Origin: Candidatus Didemnitutus sp.
GTDB lineage: Bacteria; Verrucomicrobiota; Verrucomicrobiia; Opitutales; Opitutaceae
Assembly: GCA_030681265.1 (NCBI GenBank)
Contig: JAUXXD010000064.1
Span: forward strand, 1 to 32,781
Reading direction: 5' to 3'
Length of the DNA stretch: 32,781 nucleotides
Part shown: positions 2,643-23,427 of the stretch, in pieces
How the letters are laid out: each line of letters opens with the position of its first letter
How positions within the stretch are numbered: the first letter of the stretch is position 1
Notes under the pieces: generated by a model
Seen by the model: the letters and a program-made list of their open reading frames with translations, nothing else
What the model was told of the DNA's origin: nothing
Databases searched by the model: none
Translations under genes and position numbers: made by a program

Positions 2643-2832
2643 TCGGCTCGCTCCGCGCTCGCCGCTACGGCTGCTCGATATCAACCCGCCCTACGATGAC
2701 TCACGACTCACCCCGTAGCGGGGAGCGCCAGCCTGACTCCTCCGATCGTAGCGGGGAGCGCCAGCGACCCGACTCCTCTGATCGTAGCGGGGAGCGCCAG
2801 CGACCCGACTCACCCACCCGCCAGCGACCCGA
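2643..2832. repeat. REP cluster upstream of and inside the RAYT gene start
   Basis: An inverted-orientation REP variant lies at 2643-2668 (GGCTCGCTCCGCGCTCGCCG core). Direct copies with core GTAGCGGGGAGCGCC start at 2715, 2748 and 2784, and a truncated copy (CGCCAGCGACCCGA) is at 2819-2832. Spacings are 33 and 36 bases, both multiples of three, so the copies stay in one reading frame if translated. The inverted copy next to direct copies can fold into a long imperfect hairpin, as in BIME-type REP pairs. Confidence 0.85.
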
Positions 2833-3379
2833 TCAATTCGCATCCAAAGGCCACCTCCCGCGCCTCGCGCCCGAATTCTACCGCGGCCACGCCTTCGTGC
2901 ACTGGACGCTCACGGTCGATCACCGCGCCACCGGCTGGCTCGATCCCTCATTCCACCACACATGGCGCCACCTGCTGCTGCACACGTGCGCCCGCTACGA
3001 GTTGCTGTGCCCGGCCTACGTCTTGATGCCGGATCACCTGCATCTGCTCGCCGCCGGCATCTCGGACGACGCCGATCAGCGCCTCGCCATCGAGTTCCTC
3101 CGTCAGCACCTTGCGCCGGCGCTCGCGCCCGTCCGCTGGCAAAAACAAGCGCACGACCACGTGCTCCGCGAGGAAGAGAGGGCGGCGGACGCATTGCCGG
3201 CCGTGGTTTACTACATCTTCGAGAATCCAGTGCGCGCAGGTTTGGTCGAACGCTGGCAGGATTACCCTTTTGCCGGTTGCTGCGTGGCGGGTTATCCGGA
3301 AATTGACCCGCGCGCCGAAGACTACTGGCTGCGGTTGTGGCGGGTTTATCATTACCTCGTGCGCACGAACGCCTCGTGA
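2696..3379 (+). CDS. REP-associated tyrosine transposase (RAYT), Y1/IS200-like fold
   Basis: This is a single-domain Y1 transposase of the RAYT group, single-strand nucleases thought to mobilise REP sequences. The HUH-type pair is visible as H114-L-H116 in the motif LMPDHLHLL. The candidate catalytic tyrosines are Y172/Y173 just before the family motif ENPVRAGLV. From the ATG at 2696 the product is 227 residues, but residues 5 to about 45 are low-complexity repeats (SGERQRPD units) encoded by REP copies. The conserved domain starts only near HLPRLAPEFYRGHAF. The true start could therefore be internal, and translation of the REP segment is not proven. REP arrays flank the gene on both sides, the classic RAYT arrangement. 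It follows gcvP by 65 bases and is convergent with the GreA-like gene. Confidence 0.85.
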   Translation: MTHDSPRSGERQPDSSDRSGERQRPDSSDRSGERQRPDSPTRQRPDQFASKGHLPRLAPEFYRGHAFVHWTLTVDHRATGWLDPSFHHTWRHLLLHTCARYELLCPAYVLMPDHLHLLAAGISDDADQRLAIEFLRQHLAPALAPVRWQKQAHDHVLREEERAADALPAVVYYIFENPVRAGLVERWQDYPFAGCCVAGYPEIDPRAEDYWLRLWRVYHYLVRTNAS

Positions 3380-3381
3380 CA

Positions 3382-3520
3382 TCGGCTCGCTCCGCGCTCG
3401 CCGCTACTCCCGCCCCGTAGCGGGGAGCGCCAGCGACCCATTTCTTCTTCCCAGATGTAGCGGGGAGCGCCAGCGACCCGTTTCTTCTTCCCAGATGTAG
3501 CGGGGAGCGCCAGCGACCCG
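3382..3520. repeat. REP array with 40-bp tandem period downstream of RAYT
   Basis: An inverted REP variant at 3382-3407 is followed by three direct copies beginning at 3417, 3457 and 3497. The exact 40-base period consists of the REP core plus a shared spacer TTTCTTCTTCCCAGAT. The inverted copy and the first direct copy are separated by 9 bases and are nearly complementary, so a strong hairpin or cruciform is expected. The array lies between the convergent RAYT and GreA-like genes, where it could also help end transcription from both sides (inference). Confidence 0.9.
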
Positions 3521-21105: not shown

Positions 21106-23427
21106 ATGCCGACGCGCCACCGCGCGCTGCGACGGGGTTGCATTGCGTCCGCGCATGGCTTTCCATCGCCGCTCGTGGCGGCTTCCCCTCCAGCACCTCT
21201 GACCGGCGTTCTCGAACGCATCATTTTCTTCAACGAAGAAAATCATTACACCATCGCGGAGTTGCGCCCCGAGTCCGCCAAGACCGCCGAGGATCGCGTC
21301 ACCGTCGTCGGCGCATTGCCGGGCGTGCAATGCGGCGAAACCTTGCAACTCACCGGTGAATGGACGCGCCACTCGCAACACGGCGCGCAGTTCAAAGTCC
21401 TCACCTGCCGCAGCGAACTCCCCTCCTCCGTCTACGGCATCCGCAAATATCTCGGCAGCGGACTCGTCCCCGGCATCGGCAAAGTTTACGCCAACAAAAT
21501 CGTCGATGCGTTCGGCACCGACACGTTTCGCATTCTCAGCGAGGAATCCGGCCGCCTCCGCAAAGTTCCCGGCATCGGCAAAGTCCGCGCCACCGCCATC
21601 AAGTCCGCCTGGGAGGAACAAAAGACGCTGCGCGAGGTGCACATCTACCTGCAAACTTACGGCGTCACCACGTCGCAATGCGTGCGCATCGTCGATAAAT
21701 TCGGCCCCGCCGCCCGCGAGATCATCACCAACGAACCCTACCGCGTCGCCCGCGAGATCGACGGCATCGGTTTCAAAACCGCCGACCAGATCGCGCGCAA
21801 TCTCGGCTACGCCAACGACGCCGCGCCGCGCCTCGACGCCGGCCTCATCTACGCGCTGGAGACGTTGCAGGAAGAAGGCCACACCGCCTACCCGCGCGAC
21901 GAACTCGTCACCTACACCGCCACGCTCCTCGAAACTTCCGCCGAACGCGTCGAGTTGCGCATCGACGCCTTGATCAAAGCCGTCGCCCTCATCTCACACC
22001 GTAGCGGGGAGCGCCAGCGACCCGACGCACACCGTAGCGGGGAGCACCAGCGACCCGATGCTTCCCCCCACGACTTCCTGCAACTCCCACTCAACTCCCG
22101 CGCGGAAACGCGCATCGCCGACGTCGTGCCGCGCCTCGCGTCCGTGCCGTCCGGTTTGCCCGCGATCAAAATCGACGCCGCCATCGCGTGGGCGCAGGAC
22201 AAAGCCGGCTTCGCTTTCCACGAGTTGCAAAAATCCGCACTGCAGAACGCCCTCGCCAACAAGTTCAGTATTCTCACGGGAGGGCCGGGAACCGGGAAAA
22301 CCACGATCCTCCGCGCGCTCGTGGAAATCCTCAAAGCCAAGAAAACGCGCGTCACGTTGGCCGCACCGACCGGCCGCGCTGCGCAACGGCTCGCGAGCAC
22401 CACGGGCGGTTTCGCCTCGACGATCCACCGGCTGCTCAAATTCGAAAACGGCTCCTTCACCGTCAACGAATCGCGTCCGCTCGCGACCGACTTCCTCATC
22501 GTGGACGAAGCCTCGATGCTCGACGTGCGACTCGCCGCCGCGCTCTTGCAAGCCGTGCCGACGCGCGCGCATTTGCTCCTCGTCGGCGACATCGATCAGT
22601 TGCCGAGCGTCGGCGCGGGCAACGTCCTCAAAGACCTCATCGGCACCGAACGCATTCCGGTCACGCGTCTGTCGTTCGTTTACCGCCAGCAGAAGGAAAG
22701 TCTCATCGTCACCACCGCGCACGCCATCAACGAAGGCATCGCCTCGCCGCCGCCCGTCGTCAGCGAAACCGCCAAGGCGCAGGCGTGGAGCGATCTCAAT
22801 TTCATCGCCGCGCACAGCGCCGAGGACTGCCTCGCCAAGATCATCGAACTGTGCACGCAGTTCATTCCCGCGCATTTCAAGTGGTTCGATCCGGTCACCG
22901 ACGTGCAGGTGCTGGCCCCCATGCACAAGGGCGTGGCCGGCGTCTCCAATCTCAACGTCCAACTGCAAGCCGCCCTCAACCCGCACCAAAAGGGCCTGCG
23001 GGCCATCAGCGGCGAATACCGGCCGGGCGACAAACTCATCCAACTGCGCAACAACTACGACAAAAACCTCTTCAACGGCGACATCGGCCGCGTCGTCAGC
23101 GTCGATCTTACCAAAGGCACGCTCATCGCCGATTTCGACGGCGACCACCACGTGTTCGAGCGCAGCGAGTTCAACGAAGTCGCCCTCGCCTACGCCATCA
23201 GCATTCACAAAAGCCAGGGCAGCGAATATCCCGTCGTGATCATTCCGCTGTTGAAGGGCCATTTCATGATGTTGCAGCGCAACCTCGTTTACACCGCCCT
23301 CACGCGCGGGAAGAAAAAAGTTTTCATCGTCGGTGAACCCGCCGCCTACGGCATGGCCGTGCGCAACGCCGAATCCAAACTCCGCTGCACCCACCTGCGC
23401 GAAAAAATTCTCTCTCTCCTCCCATGA
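21106..23427 (+). CDS. recD2: RecD2/TraA-type SF1B DNA helicase with in-frame REP insertion
   Basis: RecD2 is a 5'-3' SF1B helicase of organisms lacking RecBC, involved in DNA repair and replication fork maintenance. The 773-residue product has an N-terminal OB-like domain and tandem helix-hairpin-helix motifs (LVPGIGKVYANKI, VPGIGKVRATAI, IDGIGFKTADQI). The helicase core follows, with Walker A GGPGTGKTT (392-400), APTGRAAQRL, Walker B FLIVDEASMLD, GDIDQLPSVGAG and, near the end, AISIHKSQGSEYP and VYTALTRGKKKV. Residues about 298-320 contain two REP-encoded units, RSGERQRPD and RSGEHQRPD, just before LPLNSRAETRIAD. The start is uncertain: ATGs at 21061 and 21106 and a GTG at 21175 are possible, and the family alignment only begins near PLTGVLERIIFF. 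chaN overlaps the stop. Confidence 0.94.
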   Translation: MPTRHRALRRGCIASAHGFPSPLVAASPPAPLTGVLERIIFFNEENHYTIAELRPESAKTAEDRVTVVGALPGVQCGETLQLTGEWTRHSQHGAQFKVLTCRSELPSSVYGIRKYLGSGLVPGIGKVYANKIVDAFGTDTFRILSEESGRLRKVPGIGKVRATAIKSAWEEQKTLREVHIYLQTYGVTTSQCVRIVDKFGPAAREIITNEPYRVAREIDGIGFKTADQIARNLGYANDAAPRLDAGLIYALETLQEEGHTAYPRDELVTYTATLLETSAERVELRIDALIKAVALISHRSGERQRPDAHRSGEHQRPDASPHDFLQLPLNSRAETRIADVVPRLASVPSGLPAIKIDAAIAWAQDKAGFAFHELQKSALQNALANKFSILTGGPGTGKTTILRALVEILKAKKTRVTLAAPTGRAAQRLASTTGGFASTIHRLLKFENGSFTVNESRPLATDFLIVDEASMLDVRLAAALLQAVPTRAHLLLVGDIDQLPSVGAGNVLKDLIGTERIPVTRLSFVYRQQKESLIVTTAHAINEGIASPPPVVSETAKAQAWSDLNFIAAHSAEDCLAKIIELCTQFIPAHFKWFDPVTDVQVLAPMHKGVAGVSNLNVQLQAALNPHQKGLRAISGEYRPGDKLIQLRNNYDKNLFNGDIGRVVSVDLTKGTLIADFDGDHHVFERSEFNEVALAYAISIHKSQGSEYPVVIIPLLKGHFMMLQRNLVYTALTRGKKKVFIVGEPAAYGMAVRNAESKLRCTHLREKILSLLP
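22001..22058 (+). repeat. Two tandem REP copies inside the recD2 coding sequence
   Basis: Copies of the REP core lie at 22001-22026 and 22034-22058, 33 bases (11 codons) apart, so they keep the reading frame. The second has one G-to-A change in the core. They are translated in the same frame as the copies at the transposase N-terminus and in gcvP. Confidence 0.92.

Follow-up and report, generated by a model that had tools for sequence, protein, structure and literature searches.

REPs carrying a GTAG tag have been found in frame within genes, and their highest number was reported in Opitutus terrae (Di Nocera et al. 2013, PMC3733652). According to the main text of that paper, more than half of the intragenic inserts are dimers or groups, which encode 20-30 residues, and the hosts include repair genes (uvrA, DNA ligase and recBCD proteins). 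Its authors compared the intragenic REPs with the Rickettsia palindromic elements (RPEs), proposed flexible linkers to account for their tolerance and speculated that REPs located in repair genes modify the activity of these genes. They also classed RPE-4 and RPE-6 as CGTC repeats without a dedicated transposase. On this account, in-frame REPs have been known in Opitutaceae since 2013 (PMC3733652).

Here we analysed a stretch of DNA of 32,781 nucleotides (the window) with a REP pair inside recD2, which encodes the SF1B helicase RecD2 (Table 1). The encoded protein is full-length, matches its profile with 802 bits against a cut-off of 500 and presents the domain order OB_YrrC, HHH_RecD2, AAA_30, SH3_13 and UvrD_C_2. 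A preliminary description made from the sequence had claimed two REP copies 33 bp apart in this gene, and we recovered both, an exact core at 22001 and a core with one mismatch at 22034; the encoded peptides, RSGERQRPD and RSGEHQRPD, were also as it had read them. The two units form a direct tandem with a 33-bp period (window 21995-22060, a 66-bp array), and the G>A change in the second unit is non-synonymous, replacing R with H. The recD2 ORF stays open through the insert, and both flanks of the insert have positive hexamer coding scores. When up to three mismatches were allowed, the window contained seven REP copies, compared to none in 100 dinucleotide shuffles. All strict copies start with GTAG. 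The predicted stem, CGGG-ga-GC-GCCA-GC-ga-CCCG, includes an internal GA/GA mismatch and the fold is weak, with an energy within the shuffle range (z -0.8 to -1.3 for the recD2 pair).

The preliminary description had further linked these in-frame copies to a RAYT (REP-associated tyrosine transposase), and this link was confirmed, since five exact copies of the same REP flank the RAYT gene of the window (2696-3379). The RAYT translation, read by eye, shows HUH and Tyr motifs, with the sequences DHLHLL (HUH) and YYIFENPVRAG. The genome that carries the window (G000; 3.56 Mb, 220 contigs) holds a modest number of copies, 11 strict and 24 relaxed (up to three mismatches), distributed over several contigs, and the reversed-sequence control of the same genome gave none. 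Because of its tag, copy number and RAYT association, the element is a GTAG-type REP. Of the 24 copies, three are intragenic with sound coding sequence on either side, namely the recD2 pair and a single copy in sucA. Another candidate, at C93:41325, was not counted as intragenic because its coding flanks were weak (0.25 and 0.13). Two other observations concern the RAYT surroundings. The 25-base inverted REP found on one side of the gene is external to the direct REPs, and that on the other side adjoins them. In addition, the RAYT ORF is open from its ATG at 2696 through its own 5′ REPs (window 2696-2850), in the RSGERQRPD frame, and hexamer scores in this region are not those of coding sequence.

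Table 1. Positions of the recD2, REP and RAYT features within the window.
Feature	Position	Strand	Remarks
Degenerate inverted REP GTAGCGGCGAGCGCGGAGCGAGCCG	2644..2668	-	Same 25 bases as 3383-3407; read directly
RAYT (REP-associated tyrosine transposase)	2696..3379	+	NF047646 1.4e-15, 57 bits, below the cut-off of 80
Two exact REP cores 5′ of RAYT	2748..2805	+	2748-2769 and 2784-2805; partial copy before them at 2715
Degenerate inverted REP, other RAYT flank	3383..3407	-	Read directly
Three exact REP cores 3′ of RAYT	3417..3518	+	Starts at 3417, 3457 and 3497; 40-bp period
recD2 (SF1B helicase RecD2)	21106..23427	+	TIGR01448 5.5e-241; start uncertain, in-frame ATG 21106 or GTG 21175
REP unit 1	21995..22027	+	Core GTAGCGGGGAGCGCCAGCGACC at 22001-22022, exact; read HRSGERQRPDA
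recD2 site A, hypervariable turn of winged-helix β hairpin	21997..22074	+	Residues 268-293 of window:21196-23424; alignment of 120 distinct RecD2
REP unit 2	22028..22060	+	Core GTAGCGGGGAGCACCAGCGACC at 22034-22055, one mismatch (G>A); read HRSGEHQRPDA
recD2 site B, second loop, REPs in relatives	22645..22650	+	Empty in the window: 2 residues, TE

In order to compare the RecD2 linker, 120 distinct sequences were taken from related genomes, and none of them contained RSGERQRPD. In G009, the closest relative, the segment is IIS-QGEGKGA-FLQLP, as opposed to LIS-HRSGERQRPDAHRSGEHQRPDASPHD-FLQLP in the window protein, so that site A comprises 7 and 26 residues, respectively. The net gain of 57 bp is smaller than the 66-bp array, indicating that the previous linker also underwent the loss or change of a few codons. 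The recD2 pair is thus located inside a real gene, in frame, and is missing from the orthologues. The idea that relatives would lack these residues was therefore correct as far as the REP is concerned, but many of them have repeats of other, unrelated types in this position. For this reason, the alignment suggests that site A, rather than the window REP itself, is the unusual element. Apart from this, the RecD2 ORF of G009 (L053, 94-4995) presented two intein-like inserts, one at Walker A and one at a helicase motif before SQGSE, with profile matches to LAGLIDADG_3 (2e-35), Hint_2 and Intein_splicing (1.4e-8, just under the cut-off). Match coordinates suggest that a Walker-A insert is also present in RecD2 of G012, G050, G051, G071, G078, G138 and G166.

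The position initially assigned to the REPs, between the helix-hairpin-helix part and the helicase, was supported by both the domain search and an AlphaFold model of the window RecD2. This model, built from 47 window and locus sequences, had a mean pLDDT of 88.5, with values below 50 only at residues 274-289. This single disordered stretch, in which the model places the REP residues, is flanked by strands 266-269 and 293-296, and the REP array is thus predicted to lengthen a β-hairpin turn that separates the helix-hairpin-helix part from helicase domain 1A. The closest solved structure was that of D. radiodurans RecD2 (3e1s).

When the length of site A was determined in 118 RecD2 sequences, 89 presented 12-26 residues, with exactly 22 residues in 32 of the 118. 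Another 18 presented 31-92 residues encoding REPs or other palindromes, all of them in frame; this number includes L032 (G003) and L052 (G014), both without GTAG, and becomes 16 if they are omitted. Many inserts are perfect TGTAG...CTACA doublets of REP families other than that of the window, and the site is also filled by heptamer arrays (CTCAACT and similar) and by sequence of no known repeat. Site A is a recurrent hot spot in Opitutaceae, where six or more further fillers (REP families, palindromes or heptamer arrays) were identified. We searched for 17 inserts in their 16 source genomes, scoring 25 candidates per genome, and found site-A inserts to be dispersed repeats of their own genomes. 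Among the matches listed, further copies were present in the own genome for G001, G135, G169, G015, G171, G174 and G006, and the L109-type element was seen in sister genomes; the G005 site-A element was found again at site B. For the remaining inserts of the 17, no further copies were visible among the matches listed. As a separate observation, 7-bp tandem arrays with CTCAACT, ATGGGCG or AATCCGC units, some of them as inverted pairs, are read in frame at RecD2 sites A or B, for example in L125, L136, L142, L052, L130 and L161.

Site B lies between IGT and ERIPVTRL and consists of two residues in 81 out of 121 RecD2. It carries REP doublets, again in frame, in G001, G002, G004, G005, G151 and L120. 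The doublet of G002 (C76:9861-9907) accounts for two of the three exact GTAGCCGGG cores of that genome, as if recD2 were a refuge for a nearly lost REP family. On a RecD2 tree, built by a quick method with the linker columns excluded, the presence of site-A palindromes changes at least 13 times among 118 rows, counting gains and losses alike and including the two of 18 palindromes without GTAG, and that of site-B REPs at least five times. Adjacent rows of the tree hold different repeat families, and the sister species G001 and G007 differ.

The preliminary description had also stated that the window REP is read in one frame only, which turned out to be incorrect. In sucA of the window genome (L064, C100:3502-3523), a copy with two mismatches is read VAGSTRDP, and an exact copy at the same sucA site of G003 (L099, C140:3186-3205) is read VAGSASDP; nine other members of the genus have other short sequence at this position. 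Because the recD2 copies give a different peptide (RSGERQRP), one REP family is read in two frames. A window-type REP with one mismatch was also found in frame in a gene adjoining sucA (L093, G007:C1:1166261), where it encodes VAASASE in an alanine/proline-rich linker.

Intragenic REPs of a different family were then surveyed in G001 by a census of all exact GTAGCCGGG... cores. We counted 70 exact cores at 50 loci; exact cores of this family numbered one in G007 and none in G000. According to the hexamer test, 27 of the 50 loci are located inside genes, all of them in the GTA frame. This bias (27/27, binomial p 1.5e-8) was not read as a sign of selection on the peptide, since stops interrupt most of the alternatives: among the 27 loci, none is open in the TAG frame and 9 are open in the AGC frame, and stop codons are thus sufficient to account for the use of the GTA frame. 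The host genes belong to every function (among them lpd, purK, purL, nuoM, nuoG, sucB, pdhC, ileS, murF, idh, rlmB, uup, uvrA and recD2). In G007, the orthologues lacked the REP at 10 out of 10 host sites compared, which were the first ten of the 27, and several held other variable sequence there. Doublets inside genes mostly measure 47-51 bp and those between genes mostly 77 bp (Fisher p 1e-4), a length with which the frame would be preserved as well. Two REP loci each are present in four genes (recD2, purL, idh and a cobW-like gene); under assumed gene lengths, chance would give about 0.1 such genes, or about 1.0 if the permissive genes numbered only 450. It is conceivable, albeit doubtful, that in some Opitutaceae (G001, perhaps G008 and G015) the compact 47-51-bp doublet is a gene-adapted form, distinct from the 77-bp intergenic one, which moves between genes in a single frame and provides them with a ready-made linker peptide (VAGVADPGPGSTSPAT), recD2 being a preferred target.

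The reading that we favour, with a probability of around 0.78, is that RAYT-spread GTAG REPs entered a permissive turn of RecD2 and have been tolerated there, being translated into a loop that is probably disordered and has no role of its own under selection. GTAG-type REPs, presumably spread by the RAYT, have inserted into recD2 at a surface β-hairpin turn. In most cases, a gene hit by an insertion would be disrupted and the insertion lost, and those surviving would be the ones that keep the length modulo three, hold no stop in that frame and fall in a loop unimportant to the protein. The two-unit array of recD2 keeps the frame and has no stop, and would persist in a turn free in length and sequence, which in other Opitutaceae is refilled repeatedly by whichever repeats each genome spreads. 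The resulting protein would be made and remain functional. The G001 census, in which two of about 24 REP-bearing genes act in repair, and the mixed fillers of site A favour tolerance rather than benefit. Two features of G001 are not predicted by spread followed by such a filter, namely the presence of two REP loci in each of four genes and the two doublet lengths; because the genes with two loci exceed the chance expectation, tolerance may be complemented by local spread or targeting.

Alternatively, the insert could be useful, either because an mRNA hairpin at the domain border slows ribosomes and allows RecD2 to fold in two steps, or because a longer linker tunes the helicase. The location of site A at a domain border, its many independent fillings and the strong fold of GTAG doublets such as that of G001 (z -5.3) are in line with this proposal, which we nevertheless regard as improbable: the fold of the window pair does not surpass that of shuffles, the same site is occupied by heptamer arrays and by fillers that are not palindromic, 32 of the 118 RecD2 keep exactly 22 residues and G007 has none of the insert. 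A role specific to repair is further disfavoured by the absence of a repair-gene bias in G001, where only recD2 and uvrA were of this kind. It is similarly hard to credit that REPs are targeted to such places, either because the RAYT prefers certain sequences or through homing beside existing repeats, instead of being filtered afterwards. Double insertions in single G001 genes beyond chance, the recD2 doublet that retains most of the exact GTAGCCGGG cores of G002 and the fact that windows with REPs often have more would fit targeting, but inspection by eye revealed no common target sequence among sites A and B, the sucA site and the ten G001 sites that were compared, and unrelated repeat types use the same sites. 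Finally, chance resemblance or an assembly artefact is very unlikely even in a draft genome of 220 contigs, as shuffles gave no matches, misassembly is at odds with both recD2 halves lying intact, ordered and oriented on one 32.8-kb contig, and the same phenomenon is present in the single-contig genome G015 and in G001.

Tolerated insertion of this kind serves as a natural experiment on the conversion of short mobile repeats into protein, in which one turn of an enzyme has been filled independently by many families and close relatives provide empty controls. It also makes testable the question left open in 2013 of whether repair genes carry REPs fortuitously or for a function (PMC3733652). In addition, annotators and structural biologists should be aware that such linkers are repeat-derived.

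With respect to known systems, the Rickettsia RPEs are similarly palindromic repeats that have entered numerous protein-coding genes in frame and persist in the products as peptides. The likeness to RPEs drawn in the preliminary description is fair as an analogy, but it is not new, as the main text of PMC3733652 already makes this comparison for GTAG REPs. The two differ in lineage and sequence: RPEs belong to Rickettsia and are classed as CGTC repeats in PMC3733652 (RPE-4 and RPE-6), whereas the window element, which falls outside the RPE sequence family, carries GTAG, is accompanied by a RAYT and resides in an Opitutaceae-like genome. The REP/RAYT systems of enterobacteria and Pseudomonas (REPtrons, REPINs) share with it the GTAG tag and a REP-flanked RAYT and have an imperfect stem-loop, which in the window element is weakly predicted; most of their copies are intergenic, whereas about half of the G001 loci (27/50) lie in genes. 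The closest system is that of the intragenic GTAG REPs of Opitutus terrae, from the same family, which are also GTAG-tagged, often dimeric, associated with RAYTs and in frame in known genes including repair genes; the main text of PMC3733652 names recBCD proteins and does not name recD2. What that main text does not describe is that many repeat families have repeatedly filled a single turn of RecD2, that a second site exists, that empty orthologues can be paired with the occupied genes and that one REP family is read in two frames.
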